Assembly (NCBI RefSeq): GCF_003324165.1
Contig: NW_025407877.1
Location: 1,972 to 65,971 of the forward strand
DNA from: Naegleria lovaniensis
Taxonomy: Eukaryota > Heterolobosea > Eutetramitea > Acrasida > Naegleriidae
DNA: 64,000 nt
Direction: 5' to 3'
Shown here piece by piece: positions 30,483 through 44,300 of this stretch. Numbering within the stretch: position 1 is the first letter of the stretch; every line of letters begins with the position of its first letter. Below the pieces are notes generated by a model that saw nothing but the letters and a program-made list of their open reading frames with translations, made no database searches and was not told where the DNA came from. A program made the position numbers and the translations under genes.

Positions 30483-33400
30483 ATGAATCAATTCAACAAC
30501 TTTCAAGACAACGAACAAGCGCTGGCAAAACCGTATGCTGCTCTCGAATCGTCCAGTACTTCTCCTTCCATTGGTCTTCTCATAACTTCTCACAACCTTC
30601 ATGATGATCATTGGAAAGACATCTCGTCGTATTCACAACATTCATGTAACCACTTATTGGAACCTCAAAGCAACACTTCGAACAGCTATTGTTGTGCAAG
30701 ATCATCTTCTAAAACCAATGTAAGCTTTTGTATATCCATGCTTACATTCTCAATCGTGATCGTCGTGTGTCTTCTCACTTTGTTTCATTTCGCTCTCTCA
30801 TTTCTCACCACACAACAAGAGCATTTCCATAAAAGTCAATCCATATCTTCCAGCAACGCTGTTTGTGGAGTGACTTGTGTGCATGGTGATTGCATTGTCG
30901 ATCTTATAAATGGTGACTTTTGTTCATGTCATCCAGGATATACTCAAGATGCTTGTGACAATGTCTTGTTCGATTTTGACAGCGATCAAGCGCTTCTTTC
31001 AACTGTAGCAAGTGAGCTCGTGACTCTCAATCCAACGAATTGTTTCGATGTCTTTAAAGATTACAACCCTGCTTTTGGTCTGGATTACGATTGTTATTCA
31101 AGAAATAGCAAATTCTATGTTCAATTAGGACCTGAACATTTGGTGTTTCCCAAATATTTCAACACGAGTGGTGCTGTGAAGATCAGAATTAATGCACTCC
31201 CCAGACAAACACCACAAACTATTTTGGAAGTGGTACCCATGGTTGGAGTGGGTGCTTTGGTTCGAACTTCAAAAAGTTATCGATTTTCACCCAATGCTCA
31301 ACTCAGTTACAAATTTTTCACACAAGACACGTCCTCCTCAGAGTTTGTGAAGAATATCAACACTCCAAACTTTGTACTAGCTCCAGATAGTGTCAAATCC
31401 ACGACAGTGACATTTTCTGTGAATATTACACAAAGAGGTCTTGTATGGAATACGACGACAAGTTCGACTGAATTCAACACGGGGTACAGTCCTCCAAATT
31501 TTCTCTACACAACCAATGAGTTTACTTGCAATGGAGTGAATTGTTTTTTGGAGGCGTTTTTGACAGGACCAAAGAATGCTTTTACAACTACATTTTCATT
31601 TGATGGCTCTATTGCTAACTCATTGTCAGGATATCAATTGATCAAACTGTCTTCATCTATGGTACCATCTTCTGTCAAGACTGGCTCCATACTTACCATT
31701 GGTGCAACGTCACTGTCAGAAAAACCTATTCCTGAAAGAAATGTCAATGTAAGCTTTGCTGATATTTCCGTAATAATTTCCTCATTTTACGTGTTAACTG
31801 GTGGAGGTGTGACTCAATCTATCTCTGGAGGAAATGTCATGATTGCTGTGACATCGACAGATTCAGTGAATTATCCATTAAGCTTGATCTCAAATTTGGC
31901 AGTTACTTGGCAATGTAATGGACCAACTGGCAGTAATTGTGGTCTGGTGTCACAAGGGTTGTCTGCATCCATTGCAAATGCAAATCTCAAAATTGGAAGC
32001 TATGTCATTTCAGTAACCATTGGAGGTTTCACTACGTTGACCACAAACGTTCAAATTGTGGACTCGGCTCCTTTACCCGTCACCTTGTCACCAATTCCTC
32101 CATTTACGTCAAAAGGTTCATCCATCAAATTTTCAGCTGTGATTTATGTGACGACCTCGCTCTCGATAAGTTTTAATATTTTCCAAAATAATGTCAAATT
32201 AAGTGACGCACCAATTTATCTAGCCACTCAAGAAAAATCGTCGTATTATTTAACTGGAGAATTTCCAACAACGAACACTATTCCATATTCACCTTTGCAA
32301 ATAACCATGTATTTGAACGGAAATTCATTCAATTTTACAACGACCATCATGCCAAAACCATTGAGATTTGGAACTTGTTTTGTGTATCCAGATGCTGGCA
32401 CAATCTATGCCTATGAAACTGTATTAACATTGACCTGTACATCACCATTCCAGAAAAAGATGTCAAATCTGTGACCATAGATATTGTCGATTCTTCAAAA
32501 GAATTGATGTATTCTGTTTCGAGTACTAAACAAACCTCAGTTATGACTCGAATTGCAGTTGGAAACATGAGAGTTGTTTTCACACAAACAGATCTATATG
32601 GAGGAGTTGTTACAAAAACCATTCCACTCGTAGGCACTTTTCCAGCAAGCATTTCTCCAGGTAGTAGTACATTACAACAATGTGTGCAATATATAAGCGA
32701 AAAGATATCACCATCCAATGAAACCACGAATATTCACACAGCTAATAATTATGCCATCCTATTGAACATGTGTGTCAGTGGTTCATTTGTGGTGAGCTCG
32801 TCACCTTTTGATTACGGAATGATTAATACCACACTTGTCAACATTTTTTCAACCATCAGCTACATGAGAACGAACGTATTCCATTCGAGTGTCAATGACT
32901 TGGCTGCAGAATATTTAACACCACTCGTTGTACAAGTAGTTGCCTTCTGTAAGAAATTGAACATTTACAACACGTTATTGCAAACCTATGGTAATATTTT
33001 GGCCACTCATGTGAAATTTATTGTACAAAATATCAAAGCCTCAAGAATTTCAAAAAACAATTTGCAAGCTCTTCAACAATTATTACTTGATATATATTCA
33101 CAGAAACTAATGATTGGATCCAGTGGAAATAATCAACAATTATCAATAATTACTTCTCAAATTTTGGATTTTGTCAAAGTCATGACACGATCATGGGAAA
33201 TTCAATCCATAAGTACAGATGGCGAATATTCTAGTAACGCATTGACAGCTAAAATTTTCACAGTGCCCAACATTGCTGAATTTTCAGGAAGGACTTTCTC
33301 ACTGTTTGGAAATAGCACCATGACCTTCCCCAAGAGTGGTCTCACCGATGCATTCTCCACTTCACGATATCGAGTCTTGACCTCTGTTTATGATTTTTCA

Positions 33401-35067
33401 AACATTTTTTCAAATTTACTTCCGACCAATTCAGTTCCTTTCATTCAAAGCATTTATACTCTGGATGTTAAAAGAAGCAACGACGATACCATACTTGATG
33501 TGAATAATTTACCACAACCCATTCAACTCACATTCAATATTTCCTCAAATAATCTCAATTCCACACTCTTACAATTATATTCAGAAAAGAAGGCAAATAT
33601 TGTATGTCGATATTTCCTCGAGTCGAATTCTGTATGGATCAATGATTCGACCATTACAACCTCGGTTCAATCTTTGGTAATGACACAAAGTGTTCCCACA
33701 TTTAATGCAACTTTAAATTCGACAGTCATGATCAATTCGACCACTACGAACTATGTCATTACATGTTCGACCAATCATTTGACTTCATTTGCAGTATTTG
33801 CCGACATTTATCCACCATTCATCAATACTTCCACCAATTCTACGAACACGACCAATATTGATCCAAACAATCCTCGTGTGGTCACTCCCACTGGTCTCGG
33901 TGGAGGCGAAATTGCTGCCATTGTTGTTTCCATACTCGTCGTGTGTGTTCTTGCTCCATTGGCCATTCTTGTTTTTGCAGCTTTAGGATTTTATCTATTG
34001 AAGAGAAAACAAAAATCAAAAGCAACTACAAATTCTCATGTGGCAGCTACCAGTGAAGCGCTGGTCATGAAAGAACTCGAACCAAAGAGTCATTTACAAG
34101 ATTCTTCATCTGCTCTTTTCATTAGCGAGTATCGATCCATGAAAGGAGGCACAGCAATGAATGATTTCTCTTCACAAAGTTCAGTCACTTCAAGTCCAAC
34201 CACTTCGACCATTGTCACTCAAAATATTTTGGGTAAAAAGTATGAAATTATTGAGAAAATTGGAGCAGGAGCATTCGGAGCAGTGTTTAAGGCATCGAAT
34301 TTGAGTTATTCTGGCAAGTCATCCGAGAGTCCATTTGTGGCAGTGAAAAAGATTCAACTCTCAGGTCTTTCTGAATTGAATGAAAAGTTCAAGGAAGCAG
34401 TTGCCATGTTCAAGACCAAACACGATCATTTGGTTTCACTCCAAGATGCACTCATTGATGAAGCAAGCATGTCTCTCTTCCTCGTCATGAAATATTACGC
34501 GCATGGAGATTTGGATCAATTCATTAAGGATAAGAAACATCTCCCAGAAAAGGTATTGAAACAAATCATTGTTCAAGTGTGTCAGGGTTTAAAGTATTTG
34601 GAGCAAGAACGAGACATGTTGCATCGTGATGTGAAACCTTCGAATATTTTCATTGAATCGTTTGATACGAAAAAGAATAAGATTCAAGTCGTGTTGAGTG
34701 ATTTTGGACTCGCACGAGAAAGTACCATGTTGCAGTCGATGAGTTTTGCTGGAACTCCCTTCTTTATGAGCCCACAAATGCTCATTGGAAGCAAGTATAG
34801 TTTCAATGCAGATATTTTCAGTTTGGGTTGCAGTATCTTTGGTTTGGCCACGTTTGATTTAACCGTGTCGTTGGCTCAGCTCTATTTCAAAAGATGCCAA
34901 ACATTGAAGAAGTCAAGCAATATGTGACTGAAAAGATCAAGCAATGTGGTGAGAAGTATAGTGATGGATTTATTAAGGCACTGCTGGCCATGCTTGAATT
35001 CGATGCAGAGAAGAGACCTAATGCAGCACAAGTATTAGCCATGGACTTTTTTAAAAACACTCAATGA
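30483..35067 (+). CDS. Receptor Ser/Thr kinase with EGF, REJ-like and GPS/GAIN-like ectodomain
   Basis: ATG 30483 follows an A-run; the stop is at 35067. Two one-base frame breaks (near 32445 and 34885) must be bridged, giving about 1,527 residues. Layout: about 80 cytoplasmic residues; signal-anchor helix (ISMLTFSIVIVVCLLTLF); one EGF domain with six cysteines (nt 30868-30960); a large ectodomain with REJ-like features (AVTWQCNGPTGSNCG); then a GPS motif, CSTNHLTSFAVFAD, with the cleavage dyad Leu-Thr at 33779-33784. A second helix follows (nt about 33910-33990). The cytoplasmic kinase (nt 34229-35040) has GAGAFGAVFK, VAVKK, HRDVKPSN, DFG and GTPFFMSPQML. GPS domains self-cleave in adhesion GPCRs and polycystin-1. 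Here the same module is joined to a kinase with intact catalytic residues. N-glycosylation sites are dense. Confidence 0.8.
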
Positions 35068-35396: not shown

Positions 35397-38300
35397 ATGT
35401 TTGAAGGCATTGCCTCTACCATCATTGTAAAATTATTGGGGGATTATATCGAAAATCTTGACAGTAAATCACTTAAGATTGCGATATGGAGTGGTAGTAT
35501 TAATCTCACCAATTTAACGCTCAAGGCTTCGGCTTTGGATACATTTGATTTACCTATATCGGTCGTACAGGGATGTGTTGGAAGTATTGATGCCTCAATT
35601 CCTTGGCAATCGCTCTCGAGCAGTCCTGTGATTGCAAAAGTGAGTGATGTTTTTCTGGTGGTTCAACCGAAAAAGTGTGATCACGTAGGTGGTTTGTTGA
35701 AATTTCTCTCGGATTGATTCACCCGAATTATAATAATTTTATGAATATTCTAATGATTGTGAAATTTATATCATCAAATATATAATATCTCAAATATATG
35801 TTTTAATAATACACATGTGGTCTCATAAATTTATGGCCTAATTGTTGCCGTGATGAATATATTGACACACTCCACTCTGTGTGTAACACTACTTAACGCA
35901 ACGGTTACAACAAAACATCAACCAAATTGAACGATTCCGAACCGATCATCCACAACAGTACGATGAAAAATCTGAGAAGGCACGAGGATTGCTGGCCAAA
36001 CAACGTGCTCTTCAAAATCACGAACTATGGAGAGAACAACAAGAGTTATTGAATGAAGCAGCAGGCTCAGAAAAGAAGGAGGAAAAACAAGGAGACACAT
36101 TCGTCTCTCGATTGACGGAAACAATTCTCAACAATCTTCAAGTTGAAATTTCAAACGTACATGTTCGTTATGAGGATGGATCTAATCCAAAAAATCGTAT
36201 TGTTTTTGGTATTACTATGGAAAAGCTCTCTCTCAAGAGTTGCAATGAAAGTTGGGAGGAAGTATTCATCAAGACAGCTCAACAAGCGTTCTATAAGAAA
36301 TTACTTTTACAAAATTTGTCATTCTACATGAACAATAACGAGGTGGAATTATTTTCCAAGTCTGGAATGGATACTAAAAAGTTTTCACTTCACATGAGGA
36401 AAATTATCACGGAAAACAAATTTTACAGAAGATTTATTGTGAGTCCAATTAATGGCGAATTAAAACTCATACTGCAAAAAGAAGGTCATATAGACATGTC
36501 AAAACCCAACTCATTGCAAATCTACTGCTAGACAATGTAAATATTTGCCTCGACGACAGACAATACAAAAATTTATTGTCTACTTTGGAATACATGACCA
36601 ACTATGCGAGATTTGAAAAATTTAGACATTTACGACCTAAAAGTGACTATATTTCAAGCGAAAAACAATTATGGTGGGAATATTTAGTGAATGCAGCAAA
36701 GGATATAGTGGAAAAGCAACATTTCACTTGGGAACAAGTTGAAGAACGAAAAAAGGATCGTAAAGAATATATTGAACTCTTCAAGAGAACTAAGGAATAT
36801 CCTTGGCAGAAAAAACTCTCGGAATCTGAAAAGAAAGTCCTTCAAGAACTTGAGGACAAGTTAGATTTTGACGATGTACTCTTTTTCCGAGAGTTAGCCC
36901 ACGAAGAATTAAAAGTGGAAAAGGAGAAGAATAAGCACATGCTAGTTAAAAAAGAGAAATCTGGTGGATGGTTTTCTGGATGGTTTGGAGGAGGCGGTAC
37001 GAAATCATCGACAACAGCCAGCACTGGCTCAGAAGAAGAGCCTTCATCACCTGTAGTGTTTGAATTCACAGATGAGCAACGTGAGGAACTTCACAAAACC
37101 ATCGGCTACAACGCAAAAGAAAAATCTCAATCTCTCGAATTACCTGCTGAATATGTGGCTTATCAAATTAACTTTTTCCTAAAGCAAGGTGAGCTTAAAT
37201 TGAGAAGTGCTCGTGTGAAAAGTAGTGATGCTGAATCGGCGATAGTGAAAGGTGCTTTCAGCAACTTTAGAACAGAGGTTGGAGTACGAGCTCAAGGCTC
37301 TGTCATTGTACGAGTTACATTGGAAGACTTTGAAATAACGGATCACTTTTCAGACGTGACTCAATTCAAGCAAATCCTTTCAAAACGAAAGGACTCTGGA
37401 CAACTTGCTGAAGTACTTGTTGAAACAAAGCCTTTGGATGGAGAGTCAGACTTGAAGCTTCAAGTATTACTTCAACAAGTCGATATTGCTATTAATATTC
37501 CACTTATCCAAAAGATTCTCTCCTTCTTTATTATTCCATCCAATCTTGATTTTTCTACACTACAAAGTTTAGCAATGAAACAATTCGAAAATTTACAACA
37601 GCAAGCACTCACTCAGTTGAAAGTTGCACTCGAATCCAAGATGATTATTTCTTTGGATGTACTCATTTTAGCACCAACATTTATTGTACCTATTGATCAC
37701 AAAGATGAGAATTCAAAAGTTGTTTTACTAGATTTAGGTAAACTGAAATTCAAGAGTGACATTGATAAAATTGAGCGAGCTAGAAGAATTAAAAACGAAA
37801 CCGTTGAAGAGAAGGACTTTTACGATCGATTTGATATAGAGCTTTCAAATATTCAAGCCATGATTACTGATGTTTCCAGTTTTAGAAATAACACCTATTT
37901 ATCTACAGAGGGCTCAAATAGTTTCCAATTGGTGGAAAAAGTTAGTGTTGCTTTGAAATTGGGCTTGCTCATCACCAATGACCCCAACTATGCTGGAACA
38001 AAGCTCGAAGGAAGTGTTCCAAATATCAAGATTAATTTATCACCAATGGCCATGAATACTATTATCAAAGTCACCAATAATTTCCTTGTTCTGGCAGATA
38101 ATCCCACAGGCAACAGCAAGGAAGATGTAGAACTCAAAGGACCCATGAAAATCAAATCTGATCTTTTAACAGAAAGCCAATGGAAAAATTATTGGGCTGA
38201 GCTCACAGAAAATGGACGTTTAATGCTCTACACGAACGAGAACGATCTAAAAGCTGCTGGTTGTATCATTTTGAATGAAAGATCGGTGGAGTATCACGAG

Positions 38301-41300: not shown

Positions 41301-44300
41301 TGCAAATTGAGAACTTCTCTCAGGACTCAACGAGTAATGCGTTTTCGTTCAGCTTCGATATGACCTCAGATCAAACACTGTCCATTCTCATGGTAGACGA
41401 TGTGAGAGGATACGATATTCCACTCATTACATTTATTCTCAAGAAGGTTCACTTGATTGACACGAAAATGACACAAGTTGGAGAGAAGTCGTCCATAAAG
41501 GCAAAAATCATTGGGTACATTCAAGCAGACTATTACAACTTGAAGATTGCATCATGGGAACCAATTATTGAACCCTATGGTATTGAATTCTTCTTTAGAA
41601 GAAAACCCACTTCCAAGTCTACAACAGCAACCATTGATCGTTTCGAAATTAGAGATTTAGACATTCCAAAATACAAACAATTGTATCATTTGGAAGAATT
41701 TGATGGACTTTTATTGAATGTTACTCAATCCATGATTAACACAGTGTCATCAACAGCTAAACTTTGGAAAGAAGAATTCTACACTGAGACTAAAGTATCA
41801 AAGAAATTTGATCCATATTGCATTCGTAATCATACAGGACATGTCATCAAGCTCATTTTCCCTTACAATACACAGCTTCAAAAAGCAGATGTGTACGAAA
41901 TTGGAACAGGTCAAGAAGTCAACTTTTCACTTCCAGAAGATAAGGCTCGAGGAGCGTTGCATGCCATTACCGTAGATGTGCCAGGATTTAACAAGCTTCA
42001 ATTAGAGTTGAAACAAACTGGAAAGCAACATATTAAGAACACTCGAAATGAAATTTGTATGGTTGACAATGATTTAATCGAAGGAAGAAAAATTATTACC
42101 ATAAGCTCGGGCATGCAGATACGAAACATGTGCAATATTTCTTGGGAAATTGGATCTCTCAATATTGGAAATAAGAGCATCACACGATTTGGTGTGATTG
42201 CTCCTAAAGAATATATGGGTATTCCTGTAACAAGCATACCAGAAGATATTCTGTGTATTCGACCAGTATTTCATACGAAACAAAAAGACGAGGAATCATC
42301 ATCATCTCAACAACAAGGAACATCCAACCAAACCACCCCTGTAGCTACCAATTATCAATGGAGTGTTCCTTCTGGAGGCTTGAAATTTACAGAACTACTC
42401 AAACTCTACAAGGGCTCCAAGAACGTTACCATTCCAAACACCTCTGGACCCAACATGTTTGCCATTGTAAGAACCAACTTTGCACTCGAAACTGATTATC
42501 AAGAATTTAGACAAAAGTACTCGGAGGTACCACTACTTTTCCAACGATTCTATTGCACTTTGGATATTAAGCCTCCACTCTCCATTGACAATACTCTCGG
42601 AAAAGCCATCGATTACACTCTCTTTTCACAGCAATCACAAAATCCTAATACTCGAACAATCGTCCAAGAAGGAACCATGGCCAAAGGAGAACGTATTTTC
42701 ATTTACTCTGCCGAAATGAATAACAACATTTTACTCAAAGTCAAAATGGGAAGAGAATGGATTGCAAAAGAACTTGCTCTCATTCACCTTGTTAAGCGAG
42801 AGAGCGGTAATAACCAAAGTAGTAGTGGCATGTCACTTCAACACTCAACACATGTTACTCTCGAGAATTCTACGAACAATATTTCCAGAATTTACATTGA
42901 CTACTCGGAAGGAAATACATTGGCCTATCGAGAAATTGTTCTCTTCTCACCCTATTGGATTGTGAATCATACGGGAGAAATTGTGGCTGTGAAAACATCA
43001 AAAGATCGCTATTCCATAACGCCTGGAGACTCTTTAATGTATTCAGAAGCGTATGATCGTGAAAAGATTGCCATCATGGTTGACAACTCTGGAGCAAGTA
43101 CCAATTTCTCACTCACCAACGTTGGTACCAGTGGTAACTTTGCAGTTTCTTCTGACACTAGAAAGTATTCCATTGGCTACTTTATTTCGTTGGGAGAAGG
43201 CAAATTTTACAGAACTAAAGTATTGACTCTTAGTCCTCGATATGTCATTGTGAATTCTACAGATGAGAAGATTGTTATTCGGCAATGTTTCACAAATAAT
43301 GATCATTTGGTCGTTCCCATTGAAGTGGAGCCCAATACCAATGTGAATTATTATTGGAAGGAATTGGAAGTGAATGAACCTCAAATTTCAGTGAAAGTGG
43401 CATCCAATGACAAGATTGCATGGTCAGCTCCATTCAATACCAATGCCCTCGGAGAAACCTTCCTCAAATTGAAACATGAAGATTATCCTAATAGACCTAT
43501 CGGATTGCTCTTATCGGTGGACGTTCAAGAAACACAAGGAACTGTATTCTTAATGATTCAAAAGCCAAAGAAGCCACCCTATCTGATTGACAATCAACTC
43601 GATGAAGATGTTTTCTTTGCTCAAAAGGGAGTTGAAAAATGGTGGACAGTGAAACCACTCCAAATGACTCCCTATGTTTGGGATGACAATAAGGGCGCTC
43701 ATGGCCTTCAGCTTCGTATTGGAAATGTAATTATTAAGGACGACATTGACATTGATCGAATTGGTAAAGACAAGAGAATCAAGTTGGGATCCAAAGGAAT
43801 GGCCTATCTTCGAGTGAAACCAGTGGGTCCAACCAGAGTTTTAATTTTAACCAAAGAAAAACTACAAAGTGTGAACAAACTCATTACACAAAGCTTTAAA
43901 TTGAAGCGAAAGAGACGATCCACACAAGGAGAAAATATCAAACCTCTCATTAAGCATGTGTCAAGCATCGGTTCTTCCATGCAAAGTTCAACTGCCTCAG
44001 AAGGTCAAATTAGCGATTTCACAGAGGAAGAAGAAGAAGAGTTCAATCAATTCATGCTCGCAGAAATTAATCAAATTGGAATTTCATTTATTGACAACAC
44101 TCCAAGTGAAGTGGCCTACATGTTACTGGGTGGACTTACCTTGCGGTATGCCACCACCGACAAGCATCAATTTATTGAAACACTCCTGTATCGGTTGCAA
44201 TTAGATCATCAAGATTACAATGCTACTTACCCTGTCATTCTGTGTAACATTAACGAGCCTGGACAAGAATTTCTTCACTTTAGCATGTGTCGATCTATTG

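Follow-up and report, generated by a model that had tools for sequence, protein, structure and literature searches.

The subject of this study is a gene of Naegleria lovaniensis located on the + strand of a 64,000-nucleotide stretch of contig NW_025407877.1 (hereafter the window), where it extends from an ATG at window position 30483 to the stop codon TGA at 35065–35067. From the N to the C terminus, its product comprises a hydrophobic segment, a weakly matching EGF module, a long stretch, a GPS, one transmembrane helix (TM) and a Ser/Thr-type kinase. The linkage of a GPS module to a single-TM Ser/Thr-type kinase, which an earlier note on this DNA had claimed for the window gene, is supported in four genes of the genome, one of which (L045) carries it in a single uninterrupted frame. 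We propose that the window gene belongs to a small group of Naegleria receptor kinases with a GPS ectodomain, one TM and a cytosolic Ser/Thr-type kinase; together with the mechanism outlined below, we consider this reading to stand at an even chance.

The GPS module on single-pass receptor kinases

Relatives were searched for in the genome (30.69 Mb, 97 contigs), which contains four GPS-TM-kinase genes: the window gene, L034, L039 and L045. L045 is a single open frame of 1496 amino acids or more that encodes EGF repeats, an Ig/REJ-like region, GAIN/GPS, TM and kinase (E 2.7e-51). A GAIN/GPS profile built without L045 matched this gene at 1.8e-25 over positions 13–345 of 358, and the same profile matched 0 of 7 other kinase open reading frames (ORFs) and 0 of 200 shuffles. 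In L039, a common frame covers GPS, TM and the kinase as far as DFG, and the kinase remainder lies downstream in another, while one frame of L034 runs from EGF repeats over the GPS and the TM to the glycine loop and is followed by an apparent intron starting GTAAGT and then by the kinase. In the window gene, an open frame of 836 amino acids (32417–34927) holds the GPS core CSTNHLTSFAVFAD, the single-pass TM2 (33911–34000) and most of the Pfam kinase domain. An N-terminal hydrophobic segment resembling that of the window gene is also present in L039, and the juxtamembrane stretch LFIS(E/D)Y is common to the window gene, L034 and L039.

The census of GPS genes is based on a loose scan that returned 31 rows, two of which are one gene and one of which (E 2.6, 14-amino-acid frame) was left out; the resulting 29 genes and L045, added through L039, give 30. 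A GPS with four Cys and HTT occurs in 15 genes, all of them multi-TM, and the hydropathy scan indicated 5 to 7 helices after the GPS in 14 of these 15; within this class the seven helices of L031 are encoded by the frame that follows, and the GPS of L036 has five Cys. The remaining 15 genes carry a GPS with two Cys and HL(T/S), that is HLT, or HLS in L039. The open frame shows one TM in 14 of them, and no TM was found in L053. Four of the 14 single-TM genes have a kinase, and ten (L011, L029, L030, L035, L037, L050, L051, L052, L054 and L056) end soon after the TM, although some of these ten may have a further exon. A motif scan revealed no kinase downstream of L029, L030, L035 and L037, where other genes follow closely, and none was found in the 1.4 kb downstream of L011.

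The window GPS (33605–33796) comprises C337, Y339, W347, Ser351 in the place of a Gly, an insert of 21–23 residues and C390-x-T-x-H-L-T-S-F-A-V. With its Trp, two Cys and H394-L395-T396 (33776–33784, predicted cleavage between L and T) it corresponds to the motif definition of a conserved Trp, two to four Cys and HL(T/S) (PMC9672506). Alone, it scored 14.5 bits against Pfam PF01825 (E 0.052, 20 residues) and 18.1 bits in the genome scan, in both cases below the curated cut-off of 22.5, whereas L034 and L039 passed this cut-off in the genome scan with 30.5 and 27.3 bits (21.7 bits for the whole ORF of L039).

The GPS core with H-L-T described in the earlier note was borne out through the family. 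Profiles were searched against 177,635 distinct PDB sequences. With a profile of the last ~130 residues of nine single-TM genes including the window gene (A11), adhesion G-protein-coupled receptors (GPCRs) made up 16 of the 17 distinct PDB matches at E ≤ 10, the best at 8.9e-6. They likewise accounted for 10 of 11 matches at E ≤ 1 with eight single-TM genes (A1, best 1.3e-5), for 19 of 20 at E ≤ 0.1 with 22 genes of both classes (A3, best 1.1e-12) and for all 19 at E ≤ 1 with six genes of the seven-transmembrane (7TM) class (A8, best 2.2e-8). Comparison of the single-TM with the 7TM class by hhalign yielded an alignment over the final 95 columns (E 3.5e-12), and another pair of sets one over 94 columns (2.5e-7). 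Among the profile searches suggested in the earlier note, GPS was positive by way of family profiles that find mainly adhesion-GPCR GAIN chains, Pfam REJ had no match in the window stretch concerned, and Pfam GAIN (PF16489) had no match in the whole genome, where its control was silent as well. Polycystin chains were absent from the PDB profile matches, which says little because an experimental PKD1 GAIN structure to be matched is unavailable according to PMC11697300.

The kinase of the window gene (34241–35064) is recognized by Pfam Pkinase with 138.6 bits (cut-off 31.7, E 3.2e-40), carries VAVKK, HRDVKPSN and DFG as a Ser/Thr kinase does, and has MEK1, ULK3 and NEK2 among its PDB matches. 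The complete kinase domain of the earlier note can be upheld for the most part, which lies in the frame of GPS and TM2, but the C lobe is completed in a different frame. The closest kinases in the genome are those of L039 on C16 (65%) and L034 on C2 (61%), followed by seven rows at 40–44% that represent L045 and five further genes (L041, L042, L043, L046 and L047), one row being a second copy of that of L041. These five genes are receptor kinases with one TM and NHL-like or RCC1-like plus EGF ectodomains (TM and ectodomain names read from the sequence, not from Pfam), and the GAIN/GPS profile did not match any of them. The occurrence of NHL-like/EGF and RCC1-like/EGF ectodomains on one kinase type suggests ectodomain exchange. 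In a tree of 11 kinases the window gene, L039 and L034 group together (95/95) and L045 groups with L043 (98/99), with a warning on two long branches; both one and two origins of the GPS-kinase union would fit this tree.

Some side observations concern the GPS genes as a whole. In the short-tailed GPS-TM genes the GPS is followed by conserved residues, in many cases FAVIDxNFKKA, and L052 and L056 are near copies on the same contig. Kinase and GPS genes with the same score also occur as oppositely oriented pairs sharing a contig, at 215578 (+) and 250209 (−) of C46 and at 44251 (−) and 165473 (+) of C54. Some of the multi-TM GPS genes (L022, L024, L033 and others) contain EGF, REJ (L033, E 5.4e-9) or RGS (L022, L033); RGS exceeded the Pfam cut-off in two of the three multi-TM GPS genes scanned.

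Extent of the GAIN-like region and possible self-cleavage

Several points weigh against the proposed reading. The profile of three kinase genes (A2) gave a weaker result, with adhesion GPCRs as five of six matches at E ≤ 10 and a best value of 0.0039, and with the whole region of four kinase genes (A9) only two of 11 matches were adhesion GPCRs, the better one at 0.018 ranking behind two helical chains. We take these two chains to be designed proteins. In the hhalign comparison with the 7TM class nothing upstream of the last ~95 columns was matched. Single-sequence AlphaFold2 models, which show helices and then strands, were poor, with a predicted local distance difference test score (pLDDT) of 44 for 401 residues and of 30.5 for 214 residues. 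A Foldseek search with such a model retrieved no GAIN chain among the 50 matches listed of 748, which were mostly helical chance matches. Scans of whole ORFs listed no Pfam GPS in L034 (E ≤ 0.1) or L045 (E ≤ 1). In the window GPS, Ser stands in place of the conserved Gly, and the insert of 21–23 residues before the last Cys is a difference from L034 and L039 (L011 has a shorter insert there). Finally, the window gene contains two frame changes, near 32436–32450 and near 34870–34890, without an intron of normal length.

The missing Pfam listings can be put into perspective: hmmscan of whole ORFs omits the GPS of L034, L022 and L033, to which the genome scan assigned 30.5, 43 and 31.5 bits, so hmmscan of long ORFs sometimes misses the GPS. 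As regards the fold, the GAIN-like region of the window gene (32597–33841) consists of a helical part and a subsequent beta-rich part with the GPS, the secondary structure being that of the poor model; the 401-residue model had no Foldseek match at E ≤ 0.001. A profile of the sequence that precedes the GAIN part found two PDB matches at E ≤ 10, neither of them an adhesion GPCR. Sequence kinship to known GAIN domains is seen for the last ~130 residues only. Homology thus establishes the GPS together with the final beta strands, whereas the remainder of the GAIN domain is putative.

Whether the GPS cuts itself is decided by more than the triad. H-X-S/T alone is insufficient for cleavage, as exemplified by BAI2; the His of the GPS is stacked upon by an aromatic residue, and human receptors that cleave all share a strictly conserved Gly, with Asn in its place in the poorly cleaving BAI2 (PMC13062082). 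HL(T/S) is present in nine of nine aligned single-TM GPS rows. The aromatic position, which was placed two residues after the first GPS Cys by offset and by alignment to ADGRL3, is Y or F in 22 of 22 aligned GPS rows and Y in L045, and the Gly four residues after the Trp is kept in L034, L039 and L045. Due to the presence of HL(T/S), the aromatic residue and the Gly after the Trp, self-cleavage of the GPS of these relatives appears plausible. For the window copy it appears doubtful, because Ser replaces the Gly and an insert lies beside the GPS.

These features bear on the strongest alternative, according to which the GPS-type fold is kept as a structural stalk that does not cut itself, and the protein is an ordinary single-pass receptor kinase. 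The Ser for the Gly conserved in cleaving human receptors and the insert in the window GPS would fit a stalk, as would the insufficiency of H-X-S/T illustrated by BAI2 (PMC13062082) and the existence of five related kinases (L041, L042, L043, L046 and L047) that manage without a GPS. However, the other three GPS-kinases retain Gly, HL(T/S) and the aromatic residue, which suggests that these are in use. We regard the stalk as rather unlikely.

For the GPS-kinase family, the following mechanism is proposed. The GPS would be cut by itself at HL|T(S) in the endoplasmic reticulum (ER), and the two halves would remain together. Tethering to the ER membrane favors GAIN self-cleavage (PMC12488864), and the single TM could supply such tethering. 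Pulling or ligand binding would then free or rearrange the N-terminal part. Triggering may be mechanical or adhesive, as the earlier note had inferred. If cut, the C-terminal half would consist of a short stalk, the TM and the kinase. Without a 7TM bundle to receive the freed strand, the likely output would be that this half clusters or is released from inhibition and that the kinase phosphorylates in trans. The hydrophobic TM1 of the window gene (30726–30803, read from the translation) may be a type-II signal anchor, which if uncleaved would keep the N-terminal half on the membrane instead of letting it be shed; alternatively, a signal peptide could start from an internal Met. The window copy itself may undergo little or no cleavage and work as an uncut receptor, and the ten kinase-less GPS-TM stubs may serve as co-receptors or decoys.

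Reading frames and the N-terminal half

Three pieces are needed to read the window gene: a first frame to ~32450, the 836-amino-acid frame and a third one that completes the kinase C lobe. The gene was analysed as these three frames stand, with the sequence uncorrected. Of the modules that the earlier note assigned to one gene, the GPS, the TM and the kinase as far as its activation segment share a frame, but the whole gene is not one clean frame. No intron was found at the first frame change (32436–32450) or at the second (34870–34890), which is situated within the kinase C lobe. At the first joint, an alignment ends and a tblastn match starts at adjoining residues of the paralog L034, and at the second, two tblastn matches to L034 overlap. 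Since the matches adjoin or overlap, there is no space for a normal intron at either joint. A 17-base GT..AG intron at the first frame change was considered and rejected, as its removal, worked out by hand, leads to a stop.

The adjacent VPS13 gene has an intron-less frame break at window positions 36453–36531, where the match to Pfam VPS13_N stops at position 279 and resumes at 277 within ~10 bases; this break is probably an assembly indel. The frame changes of the window gene are of the same kind and are probably assembly errors as well, indels of the assembly being the simplest explanation. The intron-less changes could also mean that the window gene has decayed into a pseudogene. The like break in VPS13, which the Pfam profile crosses without interruption in the manner of an assembly indel, speaks against such decay, as do the long open frames and kinase motifs that persist, and we judge a pseudogene to be improbable. 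The notion that a misreading has fused a separate GPS gene with a kinase gene can be dismissed almost entirely: nothing favors it beyond the frame changes, which fall outside the GPS-TM-kinase junction, GPS, TM2 and kinase share the 836-amino-acid frame, and at the family level separate genes are excluded because L045 and L039 carry the same order in one frame.

The first open frame (30483–32450, as translated) encodes the N-terminal tail, TM1, the EGF module and an Ig/REJ-like stretch. The EGF module claimed in the earlier note is matched as a single copy (30861–30959), yet only weakly, with 18.5 bits and E 0.0027 for Pfam hEGF against a cut-off of 29.3. It is followed by ~500 residues (30960–32447) that are common to other GPS-kinases and are possibly Ig/REJ-like, with a terminal motif resembling one of REJ domains. 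The REJ-like region of the earlier note could not be confirmed: Pfam gave no REJ match in this stretch of the window, and hhalign of two profiles (A5 and A7) against one of seven of the 15 REJ-positive paralogs (A6) yielded weak signals, namely 30 columns at 57% and 80 columns at 28% probability. Elsewhere in the genome REJ (PF02010) has 15 matches, 14 of them over the cut-off and the best at E 9.5e-39.

Relation to known GPS receptors

The passages considered of PMC9672506 and PMC11697300 give GAIN only for adhesion GPCRs and polycystin-1. With adhesion GPCRs the window gene shares a GPS with HL(T/S), the conserved Trp and Cys, and its family profile A11 retrieves mainly these receptors. In contrast to the 7TM region that follows the GPS there, the window gene has one TM and then a kinase, and its GPS has two Cys instead of the usual four. 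Polycystin-1 and PKD1-like proteins combine REJ and GAIN/GPS with 11 TM. They may have as few as two GPS Cys (PMC9672506), and a helix-rich region precedes the GPS, with up to eight subdomain A helices in PKD1 models (PMC11697300) compared with seven helices in our poor model. The window gene differs from them in that a multi-TM channel-like part is replaced by TM2 and the kinase, and in its unconfirmed REJ.

Within the same genus, 7TM-RGS proteins with GPS and EGF ectodomains are described for N. fowleri (PMC9283941), in agreement with the four-Cys class found here; they have 7TM, RGS and a four-Cys HTT GPS, whereas the window gene has one TM, a kinase and a two-Cys HLT GPS. The two species appear close, as the enolase compared here differs at 8 of 440 positions, counted by eye, from PDB 7ugh, an N. 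fowleri entry. The choanoflagellate GPCR-TKL/K and GPCR-TK fusions (PMC12716839) likewise join a receptor TM region to a cytosolic kinase, but this region is 7TM and not a single TM, and no GAIN domain is described for them in the passages considered. The NHL-like/EGF and RCC1-like/EGF receptor kinases of N. lovaniensis itself resemble the window gene in their kinase, 40–44% identical, and in their one TM, but are without a GPS. Among the matches listed in the open-licence literature, which mostly leaves subscription papers and preprints outside its scope, there was no GAIN/GPS receptor kinase. The union of GAIN and 7TM has been placed in stem holozoans (PMC12716839), a view with which heterolobosean multi-TM GPS genes sit badly.

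We speculate that Heterolobosea own a third class of GAIN/GPS receptors, self-cleaving single-pass kinases in which pulling off the ectodomain would activate the kinase with neither a tethered agonist nor a 7TM region and which more numerous kinase-less stubs would counterbalance, so that one genome would have two GPS outputs, 7TM-RGS and kinase. This wider view is tentative, and we give it somewhat less than an even chance. If it holds, sensors that cut themselves may act on kinases and not on G proteins alone. With both GPS-kinases and multi-TM GPS genes present in a heterolobosean, the GPS/GAIN module would be older and more modular. The proposed mechanosensing by GAIN would become testable by a simple kinase readout that is free of the tethered-agonist mechanism.

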